Below, piece by piece: positions 42,695 through 54,621 of a DNA stretch of 64,000 nucleotides. A program made the position numbers and the translations under genes. Numbering within the stretch: the stretch's first letter is position 1; the number at the start of each line of letters is the position of its first letter. Below the pieces are notes generated by a model that was given only the letters and a program-made list of their open reading frames with translations, did no database searches and was not told the origin of the DNA. The DNA comes from Akkermansia sp. (GTDB taxonomy: Bacteria > Verrucomicrobiota > Verrucomicrobiia > Verrucomicrobiales > Akkermansiaceae). Location of the stretch: NCBI GenBank assembly GCA_030523775.1, contig JAUNHW010000013.1, positions 1 through 64,000 on the forward strand, written 5' to 3'.

Positions 42695-43153
42695 ATGGGG
42701 CATTCGTACCACATCATTCTCGCGCACGTTGTTTTTCACACGGGTAGACGCACAATCAGGGAATCGGATCTTGCCCGGCTGCATGCCTACATAGCAACCT
42801 TGGCCAGGGATTACAGGATACACAGCCCCGTAGTCGGCGGCGTGGCCGACCACATTCATTTCATCGGCAACTTTCCCGTAGACAAGGCGCCATCTGCACT
42901 CGTAGGCGCAATCAAGGCCAATTCATCCCGCTGGCTCAAGGGAGTCAACAGGTATTATGCGGATTTTGCATGGCAGGAGGGCTACGGGTATTTTTCCGTG
43001 AGCGCTTCCATCCGCACGGATGTTGTGCGCTATATCCAGAATCAGGAGGCGCACCACGCCCGCGAGAGCGCGGCGCGAGAATTCGAAAGAATGGTACGCA
43101 TACACAAAATGGCGGCCGGCGAAATTGAATTGCAGGAGGCGTATAAAATTTGA
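42695..43153 (+). CDS. REP-associated tyrosine transposase (RAYT/IS200-like)
   Basis: The 152-residue protein has the Y1 HUH nuclease pattern: an N-terminal strand (HIILAHVVFHTGRR), the metal-binding HUH-type motif DHIHFIG with flanking hydrophobic residues, and the catalytic Tyr helix (VVRYIQNQEAHH). The C-terminal 25 residues are basic and helical. It would nick and process REP palindromes. The size is typical for IS200-like proteins. It is leaderless by promoter spacing. Confidence 0.8.
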   Translation: MGHSYHIILAHVVFHTGRRTIRESDLARLHAYIATLARDYRIHSPVVGGVADHIHFIGNFPVDKAPSALVGAIKANSSRWLKGVNRYYADFAWQEGYGYFSVSASIRTDVVRYIQNQEAHHARESAAREFERMVRIHKMAAGEIELQEAYKI

Positions 43154-43411
43154 TTCTCTCCCCGCGCACCGTTCATTCGGAGCCATCCTGATGGCGACTC
43201 AAATTTAGCCACGTCCGAAAGGGCGTGGGGTCACCCGTGCCCAAACATCTCGGCACTGGAACCCCGCCTTGTGCGGGGTGGCTACACGCTCCCGCCCAAT
43301 CATCTCCCTCCGTCCATCCCGCGCCTTGCGCCCACCCCTCTCCGCGCCATAGGCGCGCGAATTTTCAAATCGCAAATCATATCATTATTTTCATTTCTCC
43401 CGCGTGTTTCA

Positions 43412-47485: not shown

Positions 47486-47514
47486 TTGACATTCCCGCCG
47501 CGCGCCTGTATACT
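47486..47514 (+). promoter_or_regulatory. prfB promoter, TTGACA-17-TATACT-8-ATG
   Basis: A consensus -35 TTGACA (47486-47491), 17-bp spacer and -10 TATACT (47509-47514) precede the ATG at 47523 by 8 nt. The transcript would start about 2 nt before the start codon. Confidence 0.7.
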
Positions 47515-47522
47515 GCGCGCGT

Positions 47523-48636
47523 ATGGAAAACCAGACCAACAACGTTGATCTCTCGGCGCTCGACACGGAGGCCATGCGCAGCCGTCTTTCCGAGCTCGGG
47601 AGCTATCTTTGACCTGGCCGCCATTGAACGCAAAGTGGCGGAATTGGACGAGCGCATGAGCGCGCCGGACTTTTGGGACAACCAGGAGAGCGCACGCGCG
47701 CTCATGAACGAGGTGAACCCGCTCAAGCGCCGCCTGGAGCAGTTCCGCGCCCTGGAGAAGGGCTTGGAAGACGTGGAGGTGGCCGTGGAAATGGCCGCCG
47801 AGGAGCCGGAGATGGCCGCCGAGGCCAAGTCCGAGTACGATGCCTGGGTGAAGAGCCTGGAGGAGTTCGAGCTCGTCACCCTGCTCAACGGCCCGCATGA
47901 TGACGCCGGCTGCTACATCACCATCCACGCCGGGGCCGGCGGCACGGAGGCGTGCGACTGGGCCAGCATGCTCATGCGCATGTACCTGCGCTACTGCGAA
48001 CGCCACGGCTTCTCCACGGAAATCATGGAAAGCACGGATGGCGACGAGGCCGGCATCCGCTCCGTCACCATCAAGATTGCCGGAGAGTACGCCTACGGCT
48101 ACCTCAAGAACGAGCGCGGCATCCACCGCCTGGTGCGCATGAGCCCCTTCGATGCCGCCGGAAAGCGCCACACCTCCTTCTGCTCGCTGGACGCCACGCC
48201 GGATATCTCCGACGACATCGAGATCGAGGTGAAGGACGCGGACGTGAAGATGGACACCTACCGCTCCGGCGGCAAGGGCGGCCAGAACGTGAACAAGGTG
48301 GAAACCGCCGTGCGTCTCACCCACCTTCCCACCGGTATCATCGTGGCCTGCCAGACCCAGCGCTCCCAGCTCCGCAACCGTGAGGAGGCCATGCGCATGC
48401 TCAAGGCGCGCCTCATCCAGCTGGAGGAGGACAAGAAGCGCGCAGAGGCCGACCGCCAGTACTCCGAAAAGGGCGATATCGCCTGGGGCAACCAGATCCG
48501 CTCATACGTCTTCCAGCCGTACCAGATGGTCAAGGATCTGCGCACGCAGTTCGAGTCCGGCAACATCCAGGACGTGATGGACGGCAACATAGACGGGTAT
48601 ATCGAAGCCATGCTCAGGCATAACGCCAATGCTTGA
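47523..48636 (+). CDS. prfB: Peptide chain release factor 2, with programmed +1 frameshift
   Basis: A 29-codon first frame from ATG 47523 ends in TAT CTT TGA C at 47604-47613, the classical RF2 shift site; TGA is at 47610-47612. A +1 slip on CTT continues in the second frame to 48636, giving about 370 residues. The SPF recognition motif occurs in [10 protein letters not shown] and the catalytic GGQ at about residues 252-254. RF2 terminates at UGA and UAA, and scarcity of RF2 raises its own frameshifting. The stimulatory upstream sequence is GGGAG, a weaker match than the usual AGGGGG. Confidence 0.92.
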
Positions 48637-48639
48637 TTT

Positions 48640-49186
48640 ACGATTTACAATTGACAATTGACAATTTGGAAAATTCGGCGCGCTCCGCGCGCGGGCACGG
48701 GGAGACGCTCACGCGCCGTATGCGCCGCCAAATAATTGCCAATCCATGGACAAAAGGGAGCTACAGACACGAACAAAACAGTTTGCCCTGCGCGTGATCC
48801 GCCTGTGCGGAGAATTGCCGCAGAACACGGTGGGCCGCGTCATTGGCACCCAGTTGTTGCGCTGCGGAACATCGGTGGGCGCCAATTATCGTGCAGCCTG
48901 CTTGGGCAAGAGCCATCCGGACTTTATCAACAAACTCAAAATCTGCGAGGAGGAGGCAGATGAAGCCGTATACTGGATAGAGCTGATTTCCGACTCGGGG
49001 TTGATGAAAAAGGAGCTGCTGTCCTCCATTTTGCAAGAGGCCCGGGAAATATCTTTCATCATGACCGCATCCATCAAAACCGCACGTTCATCAGATGACG
49101 GCAACTCGGGAAAGTAACGCGCCGCAGGCGCGCAAATTTTCAAAATCGTAAATCGTCAATTGTAAATTGTCACTTGTAAATTGTAA
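48640..49186. mobile_element. Four-helix-bundle cassette between inverted repeats
   Basis: The segment between prfB and trmD begins with AT-rich repeats of the ACAATTGAC type (48640-48680) and ends with their reverse complement (about 49135-49186), each arm also carrying a GCGCGC palindrome. The four-helix-bundle gene lies between. The same arm sequence, without the gene, forms the element at 51907-52074. This suggests a small mobile cassette; mobility is inferred. Confidence 0.5.
48746..49117 (+). CDS. Four-helix-bundle protein (S23/bIVP/Avd-like family)
   Basis: The 123-residue protein is all helical: LQTRTKQFALRVIRLCGELPQN, VIGTQLLRCGTSVGANYRAACLG, EADEAVYWIELISDSGLM and a C-terminal helix ending in REISFIM. 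This is the recognisable S23/IVS family pattern, first found in 23S rRNA intervening sequences and related to the Avd protein of diversity-generating retroelements. Its biochemical role is unknown. It is embedded in repeat arms and not in rRNA. Confidence 0.75.
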   Translation: MDKRELQTRTKQFALRVIRLCGELPQNTVGRVIGTQLLRCGTSVGANYRAACLGKSHPDFINKLKICEEEADEAVYWIELISDSGLMKKELLSSILQEAREISFIMTASIKTARSSDDGNSGK

Positions 49187-49972
49187 ATGTTAGAAATTGA
49201 TGTTCTTACCCTGTTTCCGGAGCTCGTTTCCGTGCCGCTGTCCCAGAGTATCATGGGGCGGGCGGCGGAGAGCGGGCTCATCGCCGTGCGCGCCCACCAG
49301 CTGCGGGATTGGACGCACGACAAGTACCGGCGCACGGACGACTACCTGTGCGGCGGCGGGCAGGGCATGCTCATGAAGTGCGAGCCCATCTTCGAGGCGA
49401 TAGAAGAGCTGCGGCGGGAGAACACCAGGGTCATCCTCATGACCCCGCAGGGGCGCGTGTTCTCGCAGCCCGTGGCGCAGGAGCTGGCCGCCCCCTGCAT
49501 GGACGGCGGGGACGCCCACTACATCATCCTCTGCGGGCACTACGAGGGCGTGGACCAGCGCGTGATCGACACCCTGGTGGATATGGAGCTCTCCATAGGC
49601 GACTACATCCTCACCAACGGTGCCATAGCCGCCGTGGTGGTCATTGATGCGGTGGCGCGGCTGCTGCCGGGCGCGCTGGGGGATGAGCGCAGCAGCATAG
49701 AGGAATCCTTCTCCAACGGCCTGCTGGAGGCCCCCGCCTACACCAAGCCGAACGTCTTCCGCGGCATGGAGGTGCCGCCCGTCTTCCTTTCCGGCAACCA
49801 CCAGGCCATTGAGGAATGGAAGCTGGAGCAATCTGTGGAGCGCACCCGCCGCAACCGCCCGGACCTCTACGAGGCCTGGGCCGCCGCACACCCGGAATTC
49901 TTCAACCCCAAGAAGAGGAAAACACGCCCCACCGCCTACAAGCCCCGCAAAAACGCGCAGGAGAATGATTGA
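49187..49972 (+). CDS. trmD: tRNA (guanine-N1)-methyltransferase TrmD
   Basis: The 261-residue SPOUT-class protein has LTLFPELV, GGGQGMLMKCEPI, the trefoil-knot SAM site HYEGVDQRVIDT and SIGDYILTNGAIA, and the C-terminal WKLEQSVERTRRNRPDL. It methylates G37 of tRNAs to prevent +1 frameshifting. The C-terminal tail is basic. Its translation start lies immediately after the repeat arm of the cassette, so its promoter could have been supplied or displaced by that insertion. Confidence 0.95.
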   Translation: MLEIDVLTLFPELVSVPLSQSIMGRAAESGLIAVRAHQLRDWTHDKYRRTDDYLCGGGQGMLMKCEPIFEAIEELRRENTRVILMTPQGRVFSQPVAQELAAPCMDGGDAHYIILCGHYEGVDQRVIDTLVDMELSIGDYILTNGAIAAVVVIDAVARLLPGALGDERSSIEESFSNGLLEAPAYTKPNVFRGMEVPPVFLSGNHQAIEEWKLEQSVERTRRNRPDLYEAWAAAHPEFFNPKKRKTRPTAYKPRKNAQEND

Positions 49973-49997
49973 CGCGCCGCTCCCCTGCGTGTATAGT
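49969..49997 (+). promoter_or_regulatory. Leaderless promoter, TTGACG-17-TATAGT-6-ATG
   Basis: The -35 TTGACG (49969-49974) overlaps the trmD stop codon; 17 bp further the -10 TATAGT (49992-49997) ends exactly 6 nt before the ATG at 50004. Confidence 0.7.
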
Positions 49998-50003
49998 GGC
50001 AGT

Positions 50004-50945
50004 ATGTTCAAACAGTTGATAACATTGGCATGCGCGGCCGCCGTGGTGGCTCCCGCATGGTGCGCGGAGTGGATGGCGGATTTCGAGGCCGCCCAGGCCA
50101 AGGCCAAGGAGGCCAAGAAGCCCTTGCTCGTGGATTTCACGGGGTCGGACTGGTGTTCCGCCTGCAAGGCCCTGGAGAGGGATGTGCTCAACAAGCCGGA
50201 GTTCCTTTCCTACGCCAAGGACAAATTTGTTTTGGTGAAAGTGGATGTACCTATGAACGCCAAGATGGATCCGGCGCTCAAGAAGAAGAACCAGGACCTG
50301 GTGAAGAGGTACAGCATCCCGGGTTTCCCCACCCTTCTGGTGATGACCCCCTCCGGTGCCGTGTCCGGCGGCTTTGTGGGAGCCAAGGCCTCCCCGGATG
50401 CCGTGAAACCCATACTGGACAAGGCAGCCGACAACGCGCGCGCGCTGGTGAAGGCCCGCCACCTGAAAGGCAGCAGCGAGGAACAGGCCAAGGCCCTGTA
50501 CGATGTGTACCAGGCCATGGGCAGGGAGGTGCGCCCCTGCGCCGCCGCCCTGCACGCTGAAATCCGCCAAAAGGACCCGCAGGACACGCTGCACCTGGTG
50601 GGCGGCGAGCAGGATGTGGCCGCCCAGGCGCAGGAGCTGGAGGCGCGCACCGGGGAGAAGATGTTCAGCATGACCGGCCAGCAGATACTCGACATCGTGA
50701 AGGAGTTTGAGCCCAAAATCTACCCGGAGAACCGCCTTTCCCTGCTGCAGGTGAAGATGACCGGGCTGCTTTTTGCCGCGGAGAGCGTGGATGACATGAA
50801 CAAGGCGCGCGATATCCTGCTGAAGGATGCGGAATCCCTGCCGGAGATGAAGGACGAGGTGATGGAGCAGATACGCCACCAGTTTGCGGACCCCGCCGGC
50901 ACGCTCAAGAAGATGCAGGAGTTCAAGGCCCAACAGAAACACTGA
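50004..50945 (+). CDS. Exported thioredoxin-fold protein 2 (CSAC)
   Basis: The 313-residue protein has a signal peptide (about residues 1-20) and then a thioredoxin-like domain with FTGSDW and redox pair C51-S-A-C54, and GFPTLLVM around the cis-Pro. The helical C-terminal domain of about 170 residues includes the conserved NDPQDT-like segment (KDPQDTLHLVGG). It is the first gene of a two-gene unit with the next paralogue, 7 bp downstream. Confidence 0.8.
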   Translation: MFKQLITLACAAAVVAPAWCAEWMADFEAAQAKAKEAKKPLLVDFTGSDWCSACKALERDVLNKPEFLSYAKDKFVLVKVDVPMNAKMDPALKKKNQDLVKRYSIPGFPTLLVMTPSGAVSGGFVGAKASPDAVKPILDKAADNARALVKARHLKGSSEEQAKALYDVYQAMGREVRPCAAALHAEIRQKDPQDTLHLVGGEQDVAAQAQELEARTGEKMFSMTGQQILDIVKEFEPKIYPENRLSLLQVKMTGLLFAAESVDDMNKARDILLKDAESLPEMKDEVMEQIRHQFADPAGTLKKMQEFKAQQKH

Positions 50946-50952
50946 TACCGCC

Positions 50953-51906
50953 ATGTTTGCCAAAACCCTTTTCCCGGCGGTGCTGGCCGCCATCGTCCTC
51001 CCCGCGTTCGGCGCGGAATGGCTCACGGATTTCGAGGCCGCCAAGCAGAAGGCCGCCGCAGAGCACAAGCCCATCATCATGGATTTCACGGGGTCGGACT
51101 GGTGCGGCGCCTGCATGCACCTGCACAGCAGCATCTTCGAGAAGCCGGAGTTCGACGCCTTTGTGAAGGACAAGTTCATCCTGCTGGAAATCGACTGTCC
51201 GCACGGCGACAAGATGCCTGCGGAGGAGAAGGCCCGCAACGAGGCCCTGGTGGAGAGCTATTCCGTGCACGCCTTCCCCACCGTGCTGGTGCTTTCCCCG
51301 AAGGGTGATGTGCTGGGCGGCTTCCTCGGCTCCGGGTTCTCCATGGAGCAGGTGCAAAAGGAGCTGCAGCAGGGCGCGGACAACCTGCCCAGGCTGGAAA
51401 AGGCGCAAGCCCTCACAGGGCCGGAGAAATTGCAGGCCCTCGGCGAGCTCTACAAGTCCCTGAACAACGATGCCCGCCCCTGCGCCACCTCTATTGAGGA
51501 GCAGATTATCCAAAACGACCCGCAGGACACCCTGGGCTTTGCCCACCGCCGCGCCGTGGAGCGGCAGAGGCGTGATATCAAATCCCGCACCATGCGGCTC
51601 ATGCAGTGGCGTGATTCCGCGCAAATCCTGGCCGCCGTGGCGGAGCTGCAGCCCACTGTGATGCCGGAGAACCTGCCCTTGGTGCTGGAGCTCAAAATCA
51701 CGGGAAACGTGCTGGCCGCCCAGTCTGAGGAGGATTTGGCCAAGGCGCGGGACTCCCTGCAGGCAGAGCTGGACTCCATGCCGGAAAGCCCGCAGAAGGC
51801 GGAGGTGGCCAACCGCCTGAAGGCCACTTTCTCGGATATCCACCACCTCTTCCTCCAGCTCAAGGCCATGCGCGCACGCCAGGCCGAACTGGATATGATG
51901 AGATGA
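50953..51906 (+). CDS. Exported thioredoxin-fold protein 3 (CGAC)
   Basis: The 317-residue paralogue has a signal peptide (residues 1-20), FTGSDW and C51-G-A-C54, AFPTVLVL, and the same helical C-terminal domain with QNDPQDTLGFAH. Residue 205 onward is rich in Arg (HRRAVERQRRDIKSR). It follows gene 2 by 7 bp with no ribosome-binding site and ends exactly where the repeat element 51907-52074 begins. Confidence 0.8.
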   Translation: MFAKTLFPAVLAAIVLPAFGAEWLTDFEAAKQKAAAEHKPIIMDFTGSDWCGACMHLHSSIFEKPEFDAFVKDKFILLEIDCPHGDKMPAEEKARNEALVESYSVHAFPTVLVLSPKGDVLGGFLGSGFSMEQVQKELQQGADNLPRLEKAQALTGPEKLQALGELYKSLNNDARPCATSIEEQIIQNDPQDTLGFAHRRAVERQRRDIKSRTMRLMQWRDSAQILAAVAELQPTVMPENLPLVLELKITGNVLAAQSEEDLAKARDSLQAELDSMPESPQKAEVANRLKATFSDIHHLFLQLKAMRARQAELDMMR

Positions 51907-52074
51907 TTTCAATTTACAATCTACAATTGACGATTGACAATTTGAAAAGCTAGCGCACCTTACGGCGCGATATAGTGAAGGGCCATCTGGCAACATGCCA
52001 GATGGCCCTCCGAAATTCCCGCGCGCGCAGCGCGCGCTAATTCTACAAATTGTCAATCGTCAATTGTAAATTTC
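51907..52074. repeat. Inverted-repeat element with central hairpin
   Basis: The arms, TTGACGATTGACAATTTG at about 51927-51944 and its reverse complement at about 52045-52062, enclose a perfect hairpin GGGCCATCTGGC-AACAT-GCCAGATGGCCC. GCGC-rich dyads also lie inside. The element exactly fills the space between two convergent stop codons. The arms match those around the four-helix-bundle gene at 48640-49186. Confidence 0.65.
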
Positions 52075-52956
52075 TCAGAATCTGAAACCCACGCCGGCGC
52101 GCACGCCGTGGTAGTGGAGACGGTTGGCGGTCACTTCCCCGAACTCGCAGTGCGGTTTGCACTTGGCCGTGTTGCCGCAGAACTGGTAGGCGGCAAAGAG
52201 GTTCACCGCGGGGGCAACGGCATAGCAGAAGCCCAGCTCTGCGGAGTATGCGAATCCCCAGGCGGAATCATGCGCGCTGAGCAGGTGCTCATGCTCAATG
52301 TACATGTTGAGCTTGTTGCTGGCGTTGGCAATGCCTGCATTCACGCCGCCGTACACGGAGAGCTGCGGCGTGAGCGCGTGCGTGCAGCGGTAGCCGGGCA
52401 TGAAGCTGAACGTGTGCACGCGCGCCCTGGACCAGAAATCCACGCGCTCGTCCATTTCCCCCAAATCCTCCGCAGGTATCATCGCCTCGGTGGTTTGCAG
52501 GGCGGTGGGACTGGGGTGGTGGTTCTTCCGCTTGAGGCTTTCGTAGATTTTCATGATTTCCTGCTTGTATTTATCAATCAAGCTTGGGCCGAAAGGCGAG
52601 GTGGGCCTGAAGTTTGCCAGCGGGCCGTCCTGCAAGGCGGAAAGTTCCAGGCTGTCTGCCCATTTGTTGCCGCCCCAGGAGTAGCCGAAGCGCAGGGTGA
52701 GCGCGCTGTGCTCGCTCACGCGGTACACGGCGGTGATATCCCCGCCGATGCTCTTGACCTCTTGGCAGGATGCCCAGTCACGGTACGTGTCCGGCACGGC
52801 CCAGCTGTAGGTGGCACCCAGCTCCATTTCCCAGGGGGATGCTGTCTGGGGAGCCTGCGGTGCGGGCACGGGGGCCGGGGCAATGGCGGCGGGCTGCCCG
52901 CCGAAGAGCGGCAGGCTCACCCATGCGGCAAGGATGATTGCATGTTTCATGTCCAT
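52075..52956 (-). CDS. Outer-membrane beta-barrel protein
   Basis: The 293-residue protein has a signal peptide (residues 1-21, then a Pro/Ala-rich spacer) and alternating amphipathic strands (WEMELGATYSWAVP, TAVYRVSEHSALTLRFGYSWGG, FSFMPGYRCTHALTPQLSVYGGVNAG). It ends RAGVGFRF with the C-terminal Phe needed for BAM insertion. An acidic/basic insert at about 120-175 would be a periplasmic or surface loop. Eight strands fit, so it resembles OmpA/OmpX-type or porin-like proteins. Ligand unknown. Confidence 0.75.
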   Translation of the reverse strand: MDMKHAIILAAWVSLPLFGGQPAAIAPAPVPAPQAPQTASPWEMELGATYSWAVPDTYRDWASCQEVKSIGGDITAVYRVSEHSALTLRFGYSWGGNKWADSLELSALQDGPLANFRPTSPFGPSLIDKYKQEIMKIYESLKRKNHHPSPTALQTTEAMIPAEDLGEMDERVDFWSRARVHTFSFMPGYRCTHALTPQLSVYGGVNAGIANASNKLNMYIEHEHLLSAHDSAWGFAYSAELGFCYAVAPAVNLFAAYQFCGNTAKCKPHCEFGEVTANRLHYHGVRAGVGFRF

Positions 52957-52964
52957 TGCCTTTC

Positions 52965-52993
52965 ATCATACCCCGCCCATTTGCCTGTTGCAA
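52965..52993 (-). promoter_or_regulatory. OM barrel promoter, TTGCAA-17-TATGAT-8-ATG
   Basis: On the minus strand the -35 TTGCAA (52993-52988) and -10 TATGAT (52970-52965) are 17 bp apart, 8 nt before the ATG at 52956. AAAGG lies in the 8-nt gap, so a short leader with a Shine-Dalgarno sequence is an alternative reading. Confidence 0.55.
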
Positions 52994-53015
52994 GCGTGTT
53001 TTGCCGTGCGCGGAA

Positions 53016-53048
53016 GCAAAAGAGCCGCCCGCGGTTGGCGGGCGGCTC
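53016..53048 (-). terminator. Terminator of thioredoxin-like gene 4
   Basis: On the minus strand GAGCCGCCCGC pairs with GCGGGCGGCTC around a 5-nt loop and is followed by TTTT. It lies 27 bp past the stop at 53075. Confidence 0.75.
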
Positions 53049-53074
53049 GCGGTTGGGGAAACGGTGTGGCGGAA

Positions 53075-54088
53075 TCAGGCCTTGGGGGCTTCCGGGGCAG
53101 GGGCGGGGGCCTTCTGCTCTTCCGTCTTCTGCTGCTCCTGGGCCTTCTTCATCTGCTCCATGCGGTCGCGATGCTGCTTGGCCATCTGGAGAAGGCGCTC
53201 CGGCTGGGAGAACACTTGGTTGATGTTCTCCTTGATACGGTCGATGTTCGGCTCGTTCTCCACCTTGCCGAGATCGGTGAAGATGGTGTCCTTGGCCTTC
53301 TGCAGGTCCTCTGCGGTCTCTGCCTTCGTGATGAGGGCGTTGAGCTTGATTTGGATGAGGGAGAGCTTGTTTTCCGGGAAGACCTTGCCCTCGAACTCCT
53401 GCACCAGTGCCAGCACGGCATCCGGCCCCAGGGGCATGCCGTTGTTCTCCAGCTTCTGAGAGAATTCCTCCATCTGGTTCTCCACGTCCTTGCCGTGGCG
53501 CAGCCCGCACTTGTCCTGCGGGTCGTTCTGGATGATTTCATCCACGAGGTGCGTGGCGGAGGCCTGCACGCCCTGCTTCATGCTCTTGTAAATGTTGCCG
53601 TAGGCGGCCAGCTTCTCATCGCCGGAGAGCTTGCGGGCCTCGTCCAGGGCCTTCATGTTGGCCAGGCCGGTGTCCAGCGGCTCCTGGATATCCGCCAGGG
53701 CGCGGGCGCCGCCCACGAAACCGCCCACAACCTCACCCTTGGGGGTCATGACGAAGACGGAGGGGAACCCGCTGATGCGGTACTGCTCCACGAGGGCGCG
53801 GTTCTGCTTCTGCAGTTCCTCCGGCAGCTGCTTGGCGCGGGGAACATCCACCTCCACCAGCACGAACTTGTCTTTGGCGTAGGCCTCGAAATCCGGCTTG
53901 TCGAGCACGTTCTGGCGCAGCATGATGCAGTAGCCGCACCAGTCCGACCCCGTGAAGTCCACGAGCAGGGCCTTGTTTTCCGCGGCGGCCTTGGTCTTGG
54001 CCGCTTCAAAATCCGTCATCCACTCTGCGCAGAATGCCGGGGACACCAGGGCTGCAAGCCCCACTACGGTAAACGTCTTGGTAAACAT
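53075..54088 (-). CDS. Exported thioredoxin-fold protein 4 (CGYC)
   Basis: The 337-residue paralogue starts at ATG 54088, which lies 6 nt past the -10 of its promoter; a longer reading to 54169 is not supported. It has a signal peptide, FTGSDW with C51-G-Y-C54, GFPSVFVM and the helical C-terminal domain (QNDPQDKCGLRH). It ends in a Lys/Gln/Glu-rich coiled coil with an Ala/Pro tail. A Cys in the C-terminal domain could form a second disulfide. Confidence 0.8.
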   Translation of the reverse strand: MFTKTFTVVGLAALVSPAFCAEWMTDFEAAKTKAAAENKALLVDFTGSDWCGYCIMLRQNVLDKPDFEAYAKDKFVLVEVDVPRAKQLPEELQKQNRALVEQYRISGFPSVFVMTPKGEVVGGFVGGARALADIQEPLDTGLANMKALDEARKLSGDEKLAAYGNIYKSMKQGVQASATHLVDEIIQNDPQDKCGLRHGKDVENQMEEFSQKLENNGMPLGPDAVLALVQEFEGKVFPENKLSLIQIKLNALITKAETAEDLQKAKDTIFTDLGKVENEPNIDRIKENINQVFSQPERLLQMAKQHRDRMEQMKKAQEQQKTEEQKAPAPAPEAPKA

Positions 54089-54094
54089 GCCGCG

Positions 54095-54124
54095 AGTATA
54101 CGCACGCGCGAGCCGCCGCCGCAA
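54095..54124 (-). promoter_or_regulatory. Leaderless promoter, TTGCGG-18-TATACT-6-ATG
   Basis: On the minus strand the -35 TTGCGG (54124-54119) and -10 TATACT (54100-54095) are 18 bp apart, exactly 6 nt before the ATG at 54088. The layout is identical to that of thioredoxin-like gene 1. Confidence 0.7.
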
Positions 54125-54165
54125 GCCAAAAACCCGCAACTGACATACTTTCCCGCGCAGCTGCG

Positions 54166-54621
54166 TCACAGCACCGCCTCCTGCAGGGATTGCAGGTAAT
54201 CCGCCACGGGTGCGGCCAGCATGGCGGGCGCGTTCTCTCCCAGGCGGAAACGCCAGCGCATCAGGTTGCGCAGCAGGCCCAGGTGAACCTCCGGCCGTTC
54301 CTCCGGCACCAGCAGCAGGATGATGAATTGCGCCTGCCCCAAATCCCAGTTCACGCCCTTGGCGGAGCGCGCCGCGTACACGCCTGCGCGCGCCAGGCCG
54401 GGGATGCGGCCGTGCGGCACCGCCAGCCCCTGGGAAACGAAGGTGGGCTCCAGGTGCTCGCGCTCCAGGGCGGCTGCCACGGCGGTCTCCGCGTCCTGCA
54501 GGCCCATCATGCCGGAGAGCTCGCGGGTCATGAGGCTCACCACCTCGTCCCGGTTCTGCAGCTCCGGCAGCTCGCCCTCCTTCACAAAGAGGAACGGCGC
54601 CGTCTGTGTGTCCTTTGCCAT
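54166..54621 (-). CDS. PTS EIIA(Ntr)-like regulatory protein
   Basis: I start at ATG 54621, 13 nt past a promoter -10, giving 151 residues. The PTS EIIA type-2 fold is recognisable: the phosphorylatable His70 in GLAVPHGRI, then FIILLLVPEERPEVHLGLLRNLMRW. It is not linked to a sugar permease, so it is probably a signalling EIIA of the PtsN type, communicating nitrogen or carbon state. The operon partners EINtr and NPr are not in this window. Confidence 0.8.
   Translation of the reverse strand: MAKDTQTAPFLFVKEGELPELQNRDEVVSLMTRELSGMMGLQDAETAVAAALEREHLEPTFVSQGLAVPHGRIPGLARAGVYAARSAKGVNWDLGQAQFIILLLVPEERPEVHLGLLRNLMRWRFRLGENAPAMLAAPVADYLQSLQEAVL

Follow-up and report, generated by a model that had tools for sequence, protein, structure and literature searches.

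Two intergenic units in a 64,000-bp window of the genome of Akkermansia sp. (contig JAUNHW010000013.1, positions 1 to 64,000) probably belong to a single family of minimal mobile elements, one unit bearing a gene and the other none, and the S23 protein encoded by the former probably recognises the repeat arms that bound both. This reading, reached by comparison of genomic sequences, builds on the architecture of the units, their dispersal, their presence and absence at defined sites, repeated independent arrival at one site, and a link between S23 protein lineage and the heptamer of the arms, each of which the comparisons demonstrate. The first-pass annotation had proposed gene-bearing and gene-less forms of one small mobile unit; this part of it is supported by dispersal, by site variation, and by presence or absence on plasmids, while autonomy of the gene-bearing form and a role of S23 as mobility or RNA-binding factor are putative.

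Architecture of the two units and the S23 protein

The gene-bearing unit occupies the 550 bp (48637-49186) between the prfB stop codon, which ends at 48636, and the trmD start codon at 49187. The S23 gene lies in it between one arm and an inverted second arm, each with a small GC hairpin on its inner side. The arms suspected around an S23/Avd-like gene at this place are present, the exact span being 48637-49186. S23 is the only gene of the unit, which lacks the transposase gene of an insertion sequence or of the parent of a MITE. The gene-less unit (51907-52074, 168 bp) makes up the whole of the DNA that separates a thioredoxin-like gene (stop at 51906) from a convergent beta-barrel gene (stop at 52075), exactly as the first-pass annotation had it; the central hairpin noted there also exists, while its perfect stem measures 14 rather than 12 bp. 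The features of both units are as follows.

48637-48668, plus strand: left heptamer arm (TTTACGATTTACAATTGACAATTGACAATTTG), beginning at the first base past the prfB stop codon
48678-48695, no strand: GC-rich hairpin (GCGCGCTCCGCGCGCGGG) inside the left arm, resembling those that border the genome's RAYT genes
48746-49117, plus strand: S23 / TIGR02436 four-helix-bundle gene (123 aa), under purifying selection
49118-49133, no strand: GC-rich hairpin (CGCGCCGCAGGCGCGC) inside the right arm
49142-49186, minus strand: right heptamer arm, inverted, its last base just 5' of the trmD start codon
51911-51944, plus strand: left heptamer arm of the gene-less element, a few bases 3' of the thioredoxin-like gene stop codon
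51979-52009, no strand: perfect 14-bp hairpin AGGGCCATCTGGCA/TGCCAGATGGCCCT of the gene-less element
52018-52040, no strand: GC-rich hairpin CCCGCGCGCGCAGCGCGCGCTAA inside the right arm of the gene-less element
52041-52074, minus strand: right heptamer arm of the gene-less element, reaching up to the stop codon of the convergent gene for an outer-membrane beta-barrel protein

The arms are built of about five 7-bp units (ACRATTK) in tandem, with opposite orientation on the two sides, and a GC-rich hairpin usually follows just inside. Four TTNAC cores at a spacing of 7, plus a degenerate fifth, were found in 32 of the 48 arms of this genome, and 28 of the 48 begin no more than 20 bp from a stop codon that faces them, a raw count to which the shortness of spacers and selection against the disruption of genes contribute. 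The numbers of units in left and right arms are not correlated (r = 0.05). Folded as RNA, the whole gene-less unit has z = -12.4. Similar copies with the same central hairpin are located at two other sites, one of them 85% identical. An Rfam scan of positions 47500-53500 yielded zero matches. The vicinity of the gene-less unit (50004-51906 and 53075-54169) contains three neighbouring thioredoxin-like paralogues, two in tandem and one on the opposite strand.

The product of the gene between prfB and trmD matches PF05635 (E 6e-17) and TIGR02436 (E 6e-25), passing the S23 family cut-offs of 33.8 and 24 bits with 62.2 and 87.5 bits, respectively. Its AlphaFold model (pLDDT 94) is a four-helix bundle, for which the best PDB matches are 2RLD and 2GSC, each with chains A-E, followed by Avd of diversity-generating retroelements (DGRs). 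The gene is under purifying selection (dN/dS ~0.1, with dS saturated), and S23 proteins are mostly basic (median pI 9.1). The relatedness to Avd that had been suggested holds for the four-helix-bundle fold (8UB7, 4DWL) and is structural only, Avd being a pentamer, whereas sequence identity is ~12% and the DGR reverse transcriptase (PF00078) has zero matches in this genome; an Avd/DGR route was rejected on the latter ground.

Dispersal in the genome and variation among related species

The search of this genome (2.33 Mb in 37 contigs) with ACAATTGACNATTGACAATT, allowing up to three mismatches, returned 93 matches, vs. 0 for the reversed pattern, a difference well outside chance, and the ACRATTK-type arm matches correspond to ~40 sites. 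Two further S23 genes are flanked by arms of a GTACAA-type heptamer and of a GGATTA hexamer, respectively, and each of these arm types is also dispersed in many gene-less copies. For the GTACAA/GTACTA-type arrays, 111 matches were obtained against 0 in the control; the reversed control is unusable for the hexamer arms, as the hexamer unit is identical when read backwards. Several contigs of this genome (G000) end inside heptamer or hexamer arrays (C8:4, C11:1, C13:6, C27:1, C31:8615), so the assembly is probably interrupted by these repeats, and the true copy numbers may be higher. The arms are by no means confined to the window: besides the ~40 genomic sites, S23 genes of at least a dozen phyla have equivalent arms.

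Two side observations concern individual arrays. At one gene-less element (L031, ~1350-1390) a different small repeat (CCGTCTACGACTAGCGCC...GCAGGC) is inserted within the left heptamer arm, and similar repeats recur at other sites. In the window, the stretch at ~43346-43383, which comes after a RAYT gene, looks like a decayed heptamer arm.

The interval between prfB and trmD is variable among related species, many of the genomes compared being metagenome assemblies. In many species of the genus it is an empty spacer of 4-46 bp; the other species differ in whether a plain terminator, a heptamer element of 77-116 bp without a gene, or an S23 element is present, and the arms of the last are of the ACAATTK, GTACTAK, or GGACAAG/GTACAAAG-like type. 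The element is, hence, not fixed at one site in all relatives, since empty, gene-less, and differently armed S23 forms all occur there. In G044, a GTACTA-type S23 element is found at the 3' end of prfB, although trmD is not the next gene. Further pairs of empty and filled sites were observed in a cluster of close species.

Synonymous divergence of S23 is discordant with that of its neighbours. Between the two nearest carriers, G000 and G002, dS equals 0.10 for trmD, 0.37 for prfB, and ~2.5 for S23, while in G029, G006, and G048 it is 0-0.05 for S23 and 0.16-0.30 for the flanks. This discordance indicates that the S23 genes at the prfB-trmD site are separate arrivals and were not simply inherited with their neighbours. 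Among the gene-less elements at this site, that of G040 (L101) has one 7-bp unit fewer in each arm than those of G011, G024, and G027 (L099, L103, L105), as if both arms had changed together.

A strict dependence of arrays on the presence of S23 does not hold. One relative with no detectable S23 gene (G022) still carries heptamer arrays, which means that arrays can persist, or move, without S23. Two other relatives lacking S23 have zero arrays in the stretches sampled, and in the S23-bearing G008 arrays are no more numerous than in G022.

S23 loci across phyla and on plasmids

Scanning 84,980 species genomes with an S23 profile produced 80 loci, many of them in metagenome assemblies, from at least a dozen phyla and including an ANME-1 archaeon; no 23S motif was detected in these 80 loci, and a phage collection queried with an S23 protein gave zero matches. 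Inverted repeats between the two flanks exceed the 99th percentile of controls at 59 of 77 loci, compared with 6 of 77 for the direct orientation. A period of 7 or 14 scores best in ~63 of 79 upstream flanks vs. ~75 of 518 distant stretches. At least three AGNAN cores at 7-nt spacing are present in 118 of 160 arms of this S23 subfamily, as opposed to 4 of 160 on the wrong strand, with four to five cores per arm being the commonest number.

The heptamer tracks the lineage of the S23 protein (Mantel r = -0.62, reached in 0 of 2000 permutations, 94 S23 loci). Cyanobacterial S23 lineages at 31-41% identity have different heptamers, and the main S23 lineage keeps its heptamer type in distant phyla. 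As an arm and its gene are physically linked and travel together, common descent alone accounts for part of this correlation. The idea of one universal core shared by every S23 lineage was abandoned, since cores hold no further than across a lineage.

Plasmids provide the clearest pairs of filled and empty sites. An S23 element is present in plasmid C of Trichormus variabilis and in a Scytonema plasmid, while 98%-identical backbones are empty and read AAAAAGTAATTAACAAAT. The filled site reads AAAAAGTAAT, the element, and GTAATTAACAAAT, with GTAAT on both sides, probably a 5-bp target duplication to judge by this comparison. A Brasilonema plasmid contains a gene-less element at the same site. 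Within one Nostoc gene cluster, plasmids differ in which of two junctions contains the element, and some have it at neither. Another possible duplication is TTCTA at a second plasmid site, and two further plasmid sites show small replacements or deletions in place of a duplication; of the plasmid sites compared, the GTAAT site alone has a convincing one.

Some S23 genes (L405, L422, L423) are situated within CRISPR operons of cyanobacterial plasmids, in the positions cas10/cmr3 (III-B) and cas6/cas4 (I-D). In Picosynechococcus PCC 7003 the element lies between cas10 and cmr3, two genes that directly neighbour each other in PCC 7002; the comparison suggests that S23 in a CRISPR operon is an insertion rather than a gene with a Cas function.

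Alternative explanations and relation to known systems

The dispersed units could be palindromes of the REP/REPIN type moved by RAYT (Y1 HUH) transposases, with the heptamers and the S23 gene as passengers. The two kinds of system are alike in having a repeat-flanked gene and many gene-less intergenic copies, three Y1 transposase genes are present in this genome, one of them in the window at 42719-43045, and the inner GC hairpins of the arms (AAAGCTAG-GCGCGC) are very similar to the hairpins on either side of the RAYT genes. Given these genes and the similar inner hairpins, RAYT could move some of the gene-less copies in this genome. As an account of the whole family this explanation is unlikely: all three RAYT genes have hairpin flanks without heptamer arrays, S23 elements of other phyla and of G044 have heptamer arms without RAYT-like hairpins, and the dependence of the heptamer on S23 lineage is contrary to a passenger role. 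RAYT/REPIN repeats are single palindromes rather than heptamer arrays, and RAYT is a catalytic Y1 HUH transposase, whereas S23 has no known catalytic motif.

Alternatively, the arrays might constitute a regulatory system, with S23 as a post-transcriptional regulator binding them in the 3' regions of its targets and around its own gene. Such a role would fit the position of arrays directly 3' of stop codons, their strong RNA stems, the mostly basic character of S23 and the purifying selection on it, as well as the approximate number of five cores, which suits a pentamer. We consider it quite improbable, as the would-be targets are not conserved, the same gene occurring with or without an element in different species, as arm sequences differ between close species at the same site, and as the S23 genes found at a single site arrived there separately. 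Slippage during replication and gene conversion among existing repeats, with no dedicated mobile element, would explain changes by a whole 7-bp unit, as in G040, but are a very remote prospect as the general cause, for slippage creates neither new sites nor clean empty sites with gene insertion and does not explain why arrays accompany S23 in at least a dozen phyla.

The units share traits with several described systems and differ from each in others. MITEs and insertion sequences likewise combine gene-less copies with a gene-bearing copy sharing their terminal inverted repeats; in contrast to them, the gene-bearing copy here has no transposase gene, the ends are tandem arrays, and target duplications seem inconsistent. 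The STRR heptanucleotide arrays of cyanobacteria are short intergenic tandem heptamers, scattered and of an origin not known. The TAACTGA arrays of Beggiatoaceae are also short, intergenic, and scattered tandem heptamers with no evident mechanism, reported in a paper that makes no mention of S23 or four-helix proteins (PMC4679880). Both are known as repeats only; we infer that they may be arms or remnants of S23 elements.

A further comparison concerns the intervening sequences (IVSs) of 23S rRNA in Leptospira and Coxiella, small units with an ORF of the same protein family (PF05635) between terminal inverted repeats, an arrangement also seen around the S23 gene at prfB-trmD. For IVSs with an S23 ORF, mobility has been proposed, with scattered presence and signs of horizontal transfer (PMC4990558). 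They differ from the heptamer units in lying inside 23S rRNA helices, from which they are excised by RNase III, whereas the heptamer units lie between protein genes, as the prfB-trmD unit does, and have tandem heptamer arms and large gene-less families. A search of open-access papers found no work linking S23 genes with heptamer arrays; within this literature, the heptamer-armed S23 element has apparently not been described before.

Proposed mechanism and implications

The units comprise an S23 gene, or hairpins alone, between two inverted arrays of about five heptamers, and in the mechanism that we propose they would land beside stop codons, between genes, spreading within and between genomes and plasmids. 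The most likely target of S23 would be the heptamer type of its own lineage, in the form of RNA or single-stranded DNA, with each subunit perhaps taking one unit, solved relatives having been crystallised with five chains. S23 would also mark element copies, which a host enzyme would then insert. Both the binding of arms by S23 and its driving of movement are putative. The combination of about five cores per arm with five-chain S23 structures invites a ring model in which each subunit takes one unit; TRAP, which binds its repeats with one unit per subunit, is an analogue. More tentatively, S23 might be the mobility factor of an unrecognised class of mobile elements lacking a classical recombinase, its pentameric ring binding five heptamers of its own lineage, and this class might include, as members or remnants, the rRNA IVSs and the orphan arrays of heptamers in cyanobacteria and Beggiatoaceae; we regard this extended version as possible, though on balance doubtful.

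S23 proteins have been known since the discovery of rRNA intervening sequences, with no function known to have been assigned to them. Their link to arrays gives them a candidate partner sequence that differs by lineage, which makes binding directly testable. It also offers a candidate source for the dispersed heptamer arrays that were reported earlier without an origin, and suggests a route by which IVSs could reach rRNA genes. If S23 indeed drives movement, these units would be mobile elements of ~450-550 bp that operate without a known recombinase.
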